Source of the DNA: Lentilactobacillus sp. SPB1-3
Lineage (GTDB): Bacteria > Bacillota > Bacilli > Lactobacillales > Lactobacillaceae
Direction: 5' to 3'
NCBI RefSeq assembly: GCF_026913205.2
Contig: NZ_CP168151.1
Coordinates: 1,054,001-1,118,000, forward strand
Length of the DNA stretch: 64,000 bases
Below are positions 1 through 3,953 of the stretch, piece after piece (within the stretch, counting starts at the first letter, position 1; every line of letters starts with the position of its first letter). Under the pieces are notes generated by a model. The model did not search any database. It was not told where the DNA came from and saw only the letters and a program-made list of their open reading frames with translations. The translations under genes and the position numbers were made by a program.

Positions 1-917
1 GCAGTATTTCTGGTGAAGTAAGGACTAACTTTAGTAACAAAGTGACTGTTTTCCATTCTGTGTTGAGCAAACTGCACGTGACAAGTGCCTGTAATACCTA
101 GAGCATCCATAATTCGAAACGTTGCAGTTCGTAAACGTTGATACTCTTCGTTTAATAACGTTTGAGTAGGAGCAAATATAATCGAATCACCAGAGTGAAT
201 TCCGATGGGATCCATATCTTCCAATCCAGATACTAAAACTTTGTTTCCTTGTGCGTCACGAATACCAACCATTTCGATTTCTTTGTATCCCACAATACTT
301 TGCTCAATAGAGCAGCGTTTAATATAAGTTCTCTTAAAACTCACCTCAAGCGCTTCTTCTAGTTCCTCTGTATTATTACAAATGAACCGACTTGTATCGT
401 GGTTAGGAGAAATCGGCTTAACGATGACTGGGAAATCAACTTTGCGAACAAAATCGATGGCTTCGTCTTCATTGGCAACAATCACAGATTCAATTGTTCG
501 TTCATTGATTTGAGTTAATGTCCGTTTTAATTCGACGTTTTCTACGACCTTAGACAAGTTGGTATCTCGGACCCCGACCAAAGAAACATTATTTTCAGCC
601 AAAACACCACTTTCAGATAACTGCCAAGCGATTTGCATCGCTTTTAGGCCACCATTGGTGGGCATGATTGCATCTGGATGTTCCCGCTCAATAATATTTA
701 CCACGTTGGTGAAATTAACTTCTAGTACGAATACGTCAGCTGCCTGAATCTCTTCAGCCATGACTGAAAACGGATTGTTATCGATCAGTAAAATTTTGGC
801 ACCTGTTTTACGCAATGCCGATAGTCGTTCTAGTCCAGACGCATCAAATTCATTTTCGATGCCAACATTGGTTGGTCCACTGCCGATAATCAAAACTTTT
901 TTAATATCTAGAGGCAT
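1..917 (-). CDS. carB: Carbamoyl phosphate synthase large-chain paralog, degenerate (3' part cut by window edge)
   Basis: The first 305 codons of a CarB-like protein are visible; the rest lies beyond base 1. Overall colinearity with CarB is clear: an N-terminal IIGSGP motif, a PTNGG segment, and SGLEDMDPIGIHSGDSI followed by APTQTL. In active CarB the first ATP-grasp unit makes carboxyphosphate. Here the region matching the glycine-rich loop (RPSFTMGGSGGG in E. coli) reads KPISPNHDTSR (residues 167-177). The metal and ATP cluster IEMNPR reads TKVSPY (295-300). The EDRRRF arginine segment reads ENVELKR. The frame is open and the start ATG overlaps the end of carA by 17 bases, suggesting translational coupling. 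I infer that the first ATP site is dead; the second half cannot be judged here. Confidence 0.85.
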   Translation of the reverse strand, partial: MPLDIKKVLIIGSGPTNVGIENEFDASGLERLSALRKTGAKILLIDNNPFSVMAEEIQAADVFVLEVNFTNVVNIIEREHPDAIMPTNGGLKAMQIAWQLSESGVLAENNVSLVGVRDTNLSKVVENVELKRTLTQINERTIESVIVANEDEAIDFVRKVDFPVIVKPISPNHDTSRFICNNTEELEEALEVSFKRTYIKRCSIEQSIVGYKEIEMVGIRDAQGNKVLVSGLEDMDPIGIHSGDSIIFAPTQTLLNEEYQRLRTATFRIMDALGITGTCHVQFAQHRMENSHFVTKVSPYFTRNT

Positions 918-1992
918 TGTTTTCCCTTCTTCTGGCCATGATTTCTATAAAGTCATCGAATAAGTCAACACTATCTTTAGGTCCTGGCGCTCCATCAGGT
1001 GAAAATTGAACTGAAAACGCAGGATAATCTCGATGTCTTAATCCTTGAACCGTGCCATTAATTAAATCAATGTGCGTAATATAGAGGTTGTCATGATCGA
1101 TGGATTGCGAATCGACAACATATCCTTGTTCTTGACCTGAATAAAAAATTTCATTAGTAATAATTTCTCTAATTGGATGGTTACTACCGTGATGCTCAAT
1201 CGGTAACTTTTCGACATTAGCACCATTCGCCATGGCAAAGAGTTCATGACCCAAACCAATCGCAAACATAGGAACAGTTTGTTGAACTTCACGAATCATA
1301 TCCAAAACAGAATCCGGTAAACTAGCAGGATTACCAGGCCCAGTGGATAAAACAACTCCGTCTGGATCTAGGTCTAGAATTCGCTCACTTGAAAAATCTG
1401 CTGGAACAACCGTAATGTTACAATTTCTCTTCGATAATTCTCGAAGAATACCACTTTTCAATCCAAAGTCGACAACGATGACATTGTCACCATCACCAGG
1501 ATTTGCATATGGTCTGGCGGTAGCAACTTGAGATACCTGTTGATTAGTTAAGACGGTTGCATGTAACTGATCAAAAGCATGTTCGTCATCAACGTCGACA
1601 ATACTGGCCTTCATATTTCCAAACCTATGTAGATGATGAACTAATTCACGGGTATCAATATCATAGAGGCCCGGAATCTTATGCAATTTTAAATAACGAT
1701 CAAGCGAAATACGCTTGAATTGATCTGTTGTTAAGTTTTCATATTCCCGTACTATCACACCTTTAGCAGTTGGTAATACGGATTCATATGCGTTTTGAGC
1801 CAAACCAGTATTTCCAATCGACGGCTGGGTAAATACAATAATTTGGTTATGATAAATTTGATTAGAAATTATTTCCTGGTAGCCATTCATCGTTGAATTA
1901 ACAACAATTTCACCGGTCGTTGTAGAAGCCGCACCGAATGCTTTGCCACGGTATGACGTGCCATCTTCAAGAATCAAATATCTATCTGCCAT
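901..1992 (-). CDS. carA: Carbamoyl phosphate synthase small-chain paralog without glutaminase triad
   Basis: 363 residues, the usual CarA length, with the CarA-type N-terminal domain (LEDGTSYRGKAFG, then TMNGYQEI) and a C-terminal class I glutamine amidotransferase fold (VVDFGLKSGILREL, LSTGPGNP). The nucleophile elbow, normally G-I-C-L-G-H-Q, reads AIGLGHE, so the catalytic Cys is Gly246. The HPE pair that completes the triad reads S331-P-D333. All three catalytic residues are therefore replaced and ammonia release from glutamine is not expected. SD AGGTG precedes the ATG. It lies 21 bases after pyrR and overlaps carB. Probably a paralog retained for a non-catalytic role; a true CPS, if present, would be elsewhere in the genome. 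Confidence 0.9.
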   Translation of the reverse strand: MADRYLILEDGTSYRGKAFGAASTTTGEIVVNSTMNGYQEIISNQIYHNQIIVFTQPSIGNTGLAQNAYESVLPTAKGVIVREYENLTTDQFKRISLDRYLKLHKIPGLYDIDTRELVHHLHRFGNMKASIVDVDDEHAFDQLHATVLTNQQVSQVATARPYANPGDGDNVIVVDFGLKSGILRELSKRNCNITVVPADFSSERILDLDPDGVVLSTGPGNPASLPDSVLDMIREVQQTVPMFAIGLGHELFAMANGANVEKLPIEHHGSNHPIREIITNEIFYSGQEQGYVVDSQSIDHDNLYITHIDLINGTVQGLRHRDYPAFSVQFSPDGAPGPKDSVDLFDDFIEIMARRRENNASRY

Positions 1993-2606: not shown

Positions 2607-3512
2607 TCACATCGGGATTTCGGTTGCGGCCAATTTTTTGAGTTGTTTCTCAAAAAAATCAGGAAGAGGTGCTGAAAAAATCATCAACTCGCCAGTTTTC
2701 GGATGCTCAAATCCTAACTCCTGTGCATGTAAAAATTGCCCATGATCACCGACAACTTTCTTCGGCCCATACAGTGGGTCACCTAATAATGGATGTCCAA
2801 TATACTTCAAGTGTACCCTAATTTGATGAGTTCGTCCCGTCTCTAATCGACATTCGATCAAAGTGTATTTTTCAAATCGTTTAATCACTGAAAAATGAGT
2901 AATCGCTGGTCGACCATCATCCACTATAGCTTGCTTTTTCCGATCACTCTTTGATCGACCGATTGGGGCATTGATGACACCCTGGTCCTCTTTAATTGTT
3001 CCATAGACTAATGCAACATATTTTCGTAAATTCTTTTGCTCTTTCAGTTGAGCTGACAGTTCAGCATGAGCTTGATCATTTTTAGCTACCATTAACAGTC
3101 CTGAAGTATCTTTATCGATTCTATGAACAATTCCTGGTCTAAATTCGCCATTGATCGTCGACAATGGGCTGTGAGCTAATAAGCCATTAACCAGAGTGTG
3201 ATTTTCATGTCCAGCTGATGGATGCACTACCATTCCAGAAGGTTTGTTGACCACAATAACGTCACTATCTTCATATACGATATCCAGGTCCATTTTCTCT
3301 GGTATTAGATCAATTTCTTGAGGTTCTTCGTTAACGATAGTTATTTTATCGCCAGCAGACACTTTATATTTAGGTTTCACCACCGCTTCATTAACCGAAA
3401 CGCTACCTTCATCACTCAATTTTTTTGCTCGTGACCTAGAAATACTTGGTTCTATCTCAGCGATGACTTTATCAATTCGCCCAGTTTGATCAGTTACTTG
3501 TAATTTTATCAT
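2607..3512 (-). CDS. rluD: RluD-family 23S rRNA pseudouridine synthase
   Basis: 301 residues. An N-terminal S4 RNA-binding domain (RAKKLSDEGSVSVN at about 28-41) is followed by the RluA/RluD catalytic domain. The signature HRIDKDTSGLLMVAKN (about 131-146) contains the catalytic Asp, and GRTHQIRVH follows at about 227-235. The family isomerises uridines in large-subunit rRNA. It starts only 3 bases after the lspA stop, as in the common lspA-rluD-pyrR order of Firmicutes (ylyB in Bacillus). The exact target uridines cannot be told from sequence. Confidence 0.92.
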   Translation of the reverse strand: MIKLQVTDQTGRIDKVIAEIEPSISRSRAKKLSDEGSVSVNEAVVKPKYKVSAGDKITIVNEEPQEIDLIPEKMDLDIVYEDSDVIVVNKPSGMVVHPSAGHENHTLVNGLLAHSPLSTINGEFRPGIVHRIDKDTSGLLMVAKNDQAHAELSAQLKEQKNLRKYVALVYGTIKEDQGVINAPIGRSKSDRKKQAIVDDGRPAITHFSVIKRFEKYTLIECRLETGRTHQIRVHLKYIGHPLLGDPLYGPKKVVGDHGQFLHAQELGFEHPKTGELMIFSAPLPDFFEKQLKKLAATEIPM

Positions 3513-3515
3513 TAA

Positions 3516-3953
3516 TTAATCCCTTACAATCTTAATCGCAAGAATAATAATTCCAACGGTTAAAAACATATCTGCACAGTTAAAAATCGGAAAGTTGATA
3601 AAATCCAATTGGAACATATCAACTACATATCCATTTAAAATTCTGTCTATTAAATTACCTAAAGTTCCAGCTAATAGCAAAGTTAAACTAATCTGGTAGA
3701 CCGTCTGTCCTTTAAATTTGAACAAATAATAAATTATGAATGCGGCAGCAACAAGAGCAATTACCACAAACAGCCATCTCTGACCTGTCAACATACTCCA
3801 TGCAGCACCGTCATTGTTTAATCGTGTGATAGAAAAAACACCACTGATTACGGAGTTGACCTGACCAAGTTGCAAGTGACTTACGACCTGACTTTTTACT
3901 ATCTGATCAATTCCGATTAGTAAAGCACTAATCAATACATATATAAATGGCAT
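3516..3953 (-). CDS. lspA: Lipoprotein signal peptidase (signal peptidase II)
   Basis: 145 residues with four hydrophobic segments. The conserved blocks are DQIVK near residue 16, TRLNNDGAAWSML, GNLIDRI and FNCADMFLTVG; the two aspartates of the last two blocks are the catalytic pair of this aspartyl protease. It removes signal peptides from prolipoproteins after lipid attachment, in the cytoplasmic membrane. It sits 11 bases after fhs and 3 bases before rluD, so it is co-transcribed. Confidence 0.95.
   Translation of the reverse strand: MPFIYVLISALLIGIDQIVKSQVVSHLQLGQVNSVISGVFSITRLNNDGAAWSMLTGQRWLFVVIALVAAAFIIYYLFKFKGQTVYQISLTLLLAGTLGNLIDRILNGYVVDMFQLDFINFPIFNCADMFLTVGIIILAIKIVRD

Follow-up and report, generated by a model that had tools for sequence, protein, structure and literature searches.

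Pseudoenzymes and dead glutaminase domains are both known kinds of protein. The vertebrate carbamoyl phosphate synthetase (CPS) CPS1 has a dead glutaminase domain and depends on ammonia; it keeps both of its ATP-grasp sites and makes carbamoyl phosphate. In the ATCase of Pseudomonas, the pseudo-dihydroorotase PyrC' is an inactive enzyme of the pyrimidine pathway that has a structural or regulatory role and holds the active enzyme. The proteins described here resemble the heterodimeric CPS, CarAB or PyrAaAb (EC 6.3.5.5), in the fold of both subunits and in gene order. A review gives Cys-269 and His-353 of CarA as essential for glutamine hydrolysis and places the carboxyphosphate domain, the oligomerisation domain and CarA in contact with one another in E. 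coli CPS (PMC6245113). In L. plantarum, excerpts of the published work name two PyrR genes, pyrR1 (lp_2704) and pyrR2 (lp_1782), and report that PyrR2 acts in the inorganic-carbon response, which is also in the title of Bringel 2008. As far as these accounts were accessible, PyrR2 is mentioned in them without an adjacent CPS-like pair.

The locus considered here lies in Lentilactobacillus sp. SPB1-3 (NZ_CP168151.1, positions 1,054,001 to 1,118,000), and this whole stretch of 64,000 nucleotides is called the window (Table 1). We will use the term "pseudo-CPS" for the carA-carB pair at this locus and for its counterparts elsewhere. Unlike CarAB, pseudo-CPS has neither the glutaminase Cys and His nor the metal ligands of the first site, and a large part of its second ATP-grasp is gone, as is the entire effector domain. 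As in CPS1, an amidotransferase-like part has been retained without its catalytic Cys, but here the synthase subunit looks dead too, whereas in CPS1 both ATP-grasp sites survive. The likeness to PyrC' lies in the retention of an inactive pyrimidine-pathway enzyme for a structural or regulatory role; however, pseudo-CPS belongs to another family, has no evident partner that is an active enzyme, and adjoins the gene of an RNA-binding regulator. In the literature searched, which covered few subscription journals, no account was found of a bacterial CPS in which neither subunit is active. The loss of both CarAB active sites under strong selection suggests that the pair is now a sensor or a regulatory partner and not an enzyme.

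Table 1. Features of the pseudo-CPS locus, in window coordinates unless stated otherwise
Feature	Position	Strand	Remarks
Pseudo-CarB gene, 5' part (N-terminal ATP-grasp domain, metal ligands lost)	1..917	(-)	Whole gene at genome positions 1052401-1054917, 838 aa
Pseudo-CarA, 363 aa, class-I amidotransferase fold without Cys/His	901..1992	(-)	From frame, profiles, alignment and AF2 model
Ser331-Pro332-Asp333 codons, HPE/HPD motif	994..1002	(-)	His replaced; Asp is the common third residue in the order; from frame and alignment
Gly246 codon, nucleophile elbow GLGHE (Cys269 in E. coli)	1255..1257	(-)	From frame and alignment
PyrR, sole copy found in the genome	2014..2547	(-)	RNA-contact and PRPP motifs kept
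RluD-type pseudouridine synthase gene	2607..3512	(-)	Conserved neighbour, synteny marker; name inferred from sequence
LspA-type signal peptidase II gene	3516..3953	(-)	Conserved neighbour, synteny marker; name inferred from sequence

The two subunits

The gene of the small subunit is an uninterrupted frame of 363 codons that starts with ATG, 21 nt downstream of pyrR. The sequence GAGGTG stands 4 bases 5' of the start and the frame overlaps carB by 17 nt, in line with the initial annotation, which had described an open frame with a good Shine-Dalgarno sequence and coupling to carB. The protein scores above the curated CarA cut-offs (358.4 against 307.35 for TIGR01368, and 418.4 against 221 for NF009475) and aligns over nearly its full length with E. 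coli CarA (PDB 1c30; E 3.6e-75). Its AF2 model (pLDDT 86.6, pTM 0.86) has E. coli CPS (CarA) as the best PDB match, with a TM of 0.93 over the query. The genome holds a single PF00988 match, which is this protein; therefore it is the sole CarA and, in this genome, not the "paralog" that it had been called.

Relative to E. coli CarA, the active site carries the changes C269G, H353S and E355D. The elbow reads AIGLGHE, with Gly at 246, and residues 331–333 read SPD, so the alignment agrees with the initial annotation that Gly246 replaces the Cys and Ser331 the His. The same annotation counted all three catalytic residues as lost, which goes too far. Among the CarA rows of the order with Cys and His intact, the third residue is Asp in 42/44 and Glu in 2/44, and Asp333 is therefore no loss; the protein retains the acidic third residue and lacks the counterparts of Cys269 and His353. 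A sequencing error is excluded, since 76 of the 88 aligned CarA rows (the window's own included) carry Gly at position 269 and the other 12 carry Cys. The residues Ser47, Gln273 and Asn311, which we take to form the glutamine pocket, are altered as well (S47I, Q273E and N311E). Each of the three is present in 44/44 Cys/His-intact CarA rows of the order, while among the 76 Gly rows Ser47 is kept in 1, Gln273 in 4 and Asn311 in 6. Because the pocket is mostly lost in these rows, the sensing of glutamine that had been suggested for the protein is unsupported and was rejected.

Most of carB lies outside the window. Pseudo-CarB falls below the curated cut-offs (552.5 against 1027 for TIGR01369 and 529.3 against 599 for NF003671), and it does not have the pair of complete ATP-grasp sites, with their presumed metal ligands, that a working enzyme has. 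Substitutions in the first ATP-grasp affect R129, the Gly loop 175-176, E299, N301 and R303, and in this genome Lys stands at the presumed metal ligand Glu299. The second ATP-grasp lacks 93 of its 383 positions, together with the residues that we take to be its active site. No residue (0) aligns to the E. coli effector domain, 936-1073. The initial annotation had also suggested UMP sensing, but with the C-terminal effector domain absent the normal CPS site for it is gone; UMP sensing at that site is thus unsupported and was rejected for this protein. The oligomerisation domain is retained. The CarB of L. kosonis is 93% identical to that of this genome (the two CarA proteins are 98% identical), and its AF2 model (pLDDT 86.6, pTM 0.89) has E. 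coli CPS (CarB) as the best PDB match, with a TM of 0.86 over the query.

The changes recur in a set of 49 non-redundant short pseudo-CarB sequences, obtained from 68 with a 92% filter. Position 299 is basic in all 49 (Lys in 45, Arg in 4). No sequence of the set retains Arg129 or Arg303, 6 retain Asn301, and Gly175 and Gly176 survive in 2 each. On the other hand, Gly241, His243 and Ser247 are kept in all 49, Gln285 in 48, Glu215 in 46 and Arg306 in 44, and position 169 is always basic; Glu215, His243 and the basic residue at 169 presumably hold the ribose and the alpha-phosphate. This pattern of losses and retentions across the set shows that the loss is not random. CarB looks dead as well as CarA. 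The intact carboxyphosphate and carbamoyl-phosphate sites of an ammonia-dependent, CPS1-like enzyme are not present, and such an enzyme was rejected for the short-CarB group, whose second site is gutted. CarA, CarB and PyrR are made in L. rhamnosus, according to one study, in which CarB is a protein of 116 kDa (PMC9963975) and is therefore uninformative on the short form.

Distribution, phylogeny and gene neighbourhood

A CarA of the Cys-less type, 76-100% identical to that of the window, is carried by 24/24 Lentilactobacillus genomes. The survey of the family took one genome from each of 39 other Lactobacillaceae genera; 38/39 gave at least one match, 62 in total, and each was examined together with its neighbouring genes. 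A further locus of the family and 17 loci from other families of the order, where 38/52 genomes have a CarA match, complete the set. Cys-less CarA occurs in 31/39 of the other Lactobacillaceae genera, each represented by one genome, and seven of the sampled genomes have neither a Cys-less nor a His-less CarA, one of them being the genome without any match. The substitute for Cys is Gly in 35/35 non-Cys rows, 4 of which come from other families. The remaining genus, g33, has an apparent intermediate (L202:1740-6085) in which Cys is kept, Leu stands for His and the HPD motif reads LPN; its full-length CarB with changed sites adjoins rqcH.

The CarA tree was built from 113 rows (111 different) with the catalytic columns excluded; its support values stem from a fast procedure that used no bootstraps, and some of the rows sit on long branches. 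Cys-less CarA is nested among the canonical pyr-type CarA of the order. A clade of 58 unites L202 with every Cys-less row of the family save L212 (SH-aLRT 96, with several inner forks open), and 40 rows with a short CarB, the window's protein among them, likewise form a clade (SH-aLRT 100). The minimum number of changes of the Cys state on the tree is 4, which are read as losses in the main clade, family f2, family f4 and genus g22.

In the CarA of family f2 (L243:1338-5611 and L250), Gly replaces Cys and Asn replaces His; the accompanying CarB is full-length with changed active sites. The pair sits in a pyr operon with pyrC and pyrD, and in L243 also with pyrB. In both genomes the Cys-less protein is the sole CarA matched at E 1e-50, and their carbamoyl phosphate may therefore have another source. 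In family f4 (L258:2635-5492 and L259:3180-5998), the gene after a Cys-less CarA apart from the main clade encodes a CarB of half length (583 and 591 aa), and pyrR lies in the cluster. Genus g22 has an apparently separate Cys-less CarA with a 643-aa CarB, located between uraA and pyrF/pyrE (L212:2575-5656); this genome also carries a canonical set. Lactobacillus sensu stricto retains a long CarB and shows a different pattern of divergence. Its Cys-less CarA proteins (L105, L108, L109 and L111) read GLGF and NPE or NAE, their CarB has altered active sites and is 1064-1067 aa long in three and 968 aa in L105, and pyrR was not found at these four loci.

The usual gene order at Cys-less loci is lspA-rluD-pyrR-(uraA)-carA-carB. 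Neighbours were counted in stretches of up to 8.5 kb around 31 Cys-less and 31 canonical Lactobacillaceae loci. At the Cys-less loci, pyrR is directly upstream of carA in 21/31 and separated from it only by uraA in 5/31. The initial annotation had raised the question of a conserved clade beside pyrR, and both the clade of 58 and this adjacency bear it out. No pyrR was found at the remaining 5/31 of these genus-level loci, nor at 13 loci of Limosilactobacillus and Paucilactobacillus. The gene rluD is near in 29/31 Cys-less loci against 0/31 canonical ones, and an rqcH-like gene lies convergent downstream in 18/31 of the former. Genes from pyrB to pyrF show the opposite distribution, being near in 1/31 Cys-less loci (L212) and in 28/31 canonical ones. 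Pyr operons of the order usually have pyrR close to carA, so that inertia may explain some of this linkage.

Selection, PyrR and the pyrimidine pathway

dN/dS was estimated by NG86 on 16 pairs, with saturated pairs dropped. The medians are 0.012 for carA (15 pairs), 0.011 for pyrR (13) and 0.029 for carB (8), and those of the neighbouring genes are 0.029 for rluD (8 pairs), 0.053 for lspA (11) and 0.032 for rqcH (5). The constraint on carA thus matches that on pyrR, and the constraint on carB that on its neighbours. The degenerate form is neither confined to this strain nor under relaxed selection, being present in every genome of the genus and in most of the other genera with a dN/dS of ~0.01. 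The earlier proposal of selection for a non-catalytic role is upheld by the conserved clade, by this low ratio and by the persistence of the pair where the start of the pathway is gone. The pair has the retained fold, the lost catalytic residues and the purifying selection of a pseudoenzyme under selection.

Coevolution was assessed by mirror trees on 31 dereplicated loci of 64. The distances of CarA and CarB correlate beyond the species background, with a partial r of 0.86 against 0.59 for rluD-carA and 0.51 for rluD-carB. With such tight coevolution, the role of holding the partner subunit, which the initial annotation had offered as another option, is possible. For PyrR, the values of 0.27 with CarA and 0.38 with CarB do not rise above the background pairs (lspA-pyrR gives 0.34), so that in this set contact of PyrR with the pair is unsupported.

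One PyrR was found in this genome, adjoining pseudo-CarA. It scores above the curated cut-off (NF003548, 262.7 against 218) and keeps the PRPP loop and the presumed RNA-contact residues; the Tyr that it has for His22 is common to all rows but the B. subtilis reference. A match to the PyrR element RF00515 at 403398 (54.9 bits, over the cut-off of 54) precedes a uracil-permease (uraA)-like gene, and another at 165427 (50.5 bits, below the cut-off) precedes an NCS1-permease-like gene, both genes being named from their sequences. The Rfam scan gave no PyrR element over the gathering score in the window's pyrR-carA-carB operon (stretch L002). In L. selangorensis (L097), an RF00515 element of 59.7 bits stands before the pyrR of the pseudo-CPS locus. 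PyrR was found in 27/28 genome entries with pseudo-CPS (two entries being apparently one genome), and the exception is a small MAG. L. plantarum EGD-AQ4 has two PyrR proteins, one heading a pyr operon that has an RF00515 element and encodes a CarB of 1071 aa, the other in the pseudo-CPS cluster. By elimination, the latter is PyrR2 (lp_1782), which would share its locus with pseudo-CPS.

The genome shows no second CarB-like frame; its three other PF02786 matches are frames of 385-462 aa that are probably carboxylase or PurK-like. No ATCase over the TIGR00670 cut-off was found in it. A second CarA is absent from 5/24 Lentilactobacillus genomes, namely this one (G000), G011, G012, G019 and G020; none of these five has an ATCase over the cut-off, G011 being without any match. 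In the genus, 6/19 second CarA copies were read, and Cys is present in 6/6. pyrF scores over its cut-off in 23/24 genomes of the genus, including this one, where the end of the pathway is therefore kept. In near relatives the canonical genes look broken and the pseudo-CPS pair is intact. G010 has no ATCase over the cut-off and its gene looks split in two pieces, and the canonical carB of G002 (L141:8996-12063) consists of two overlapping frames of 676 and 355 aa.

Possible roles of the pair

The role that we propose, and to which we give an even chance, is that of a binding protein. Pseudo-CPS would descend from the CPS of the Lactobacillaceae pyr operon, having lost the catalytic sites and kept the fold and the CarA-CarB pairing, and would be maintained to serve pyrimidine regulation together with the co-encoded PyrR. 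CarA and CarB would still form a heterodimer, and the parts retained, the carboxyphosphate domain, the oligomerisation domain and CarA, are those in mutual contact in the E. coli enzyme. The N-terminal ATP-grasp, with Lys or Arg at 299 where the metal ligand was, may bind nucleotide and/or bicarbonate without catalysis. The bound state would then be passed to PyrR, presumably by contact, and would tune the PyrR control of permease attenuators in this genome and that of the pyr operon in L. plantarum-like species. A further-reaching version is tentative, and we hold it to be less likely than not: the whole CPS heterodimer would have become a sensor of nucleotide and bicarbonate and, as such, a co-regulator of the RNA-binding PyrR. 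It would explain how PyrR2 of L. plantarum reads inorganic carbon, and the pair would be a two-subunit pseudoenzyme sensor found widely in the Lactobacillaceae, similar pairs having evolved independently in other families of the Lactobacillales.

Pseudo-CPS could also be a conserved binding protein or scaffold unrelated to PyrR, with a neighbourhood left over from an old pyr operon. The loci that have no pyrR, 5/31 at genus level and the 13 of Limosilactobacillus and Paucilactobacillus, speak for such a role, as does the weak mirror-tree signal between PyrR and CarAB. Yet pyrB-F genes are absent from 30/31 Cys-less stretches and pyrR-carA-carB stays together in 26/31. Moreover, the other lineages that lost the Cys (f2, f4 and genus g22) have pyrR in the cluster, the f2 case being simply a pyr operon, and nearly all genome entries with pseudo-CPS have a PyrR somewhere. 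We therefore regard this explanation as rather unlikely. It is improbable that the CPS fold has gained a new enzymatic activity. The conserved residues that persist in the first ATP-grasp domain and the very strong constraint on CarA would suit a new enzyme, but the catalytic Cys and His of CarA are gone, Gly175, Gly176, Asn301 and Arg303 are lost from most or all of the 49 pseudo-CarB sequences, and the charge at position 299 is reversed in every one of them.

Pseudo-CPS could also partner the canonical CPS as its regulator or inhibitor, for example through mixed oligomers, which would account for the retained oligomerisation domain and for the many genomes with both sets. However, pseudo-CPS is kept in the 5/24 genomes of the genus that have no second CarA, which refutes this as its sole function there, and the present genome has neither another CarA nor another CarB-like frame; such a partner is quite improbable. 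Loss of the active sites and of the effector domain would, taken alone, fit a decaying relic, which together with sequencing error we consider barely credible. The same changes are found in open frames across many species, including 24/24 genomes of the genus, under strong purifying selection (dN/dS ~0.01-0.03), and the genes that look broken in near relatives are the canonical ones (carB in G002, ATCase in G010) and not the pseudo-CPS pair. On these grounds a relic was rejected.

If the binding role holds, many sequenced lactic acid bacteria carry a CPS look-alike pair that is unable to make carbamoyl phosphate. The small subunit scores high enough to be named CarA by the curated models, so pathway models based on names could call such bacteria CPS-positive. 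The pair would also offer a direct route to the response of a PyrR protein to CO2 or bicarbonate, and it would be an enzyme that lost catalytic residues several times independently and yet stayed clustered with the RNA-binding regulator of its pathway.

A THF riboswitch was also observed to the left of the window (76.8 bits; L002:5002-5102, minus strand), upstream of a frame for a small membrane protein that is probably a component of a folate transporter.
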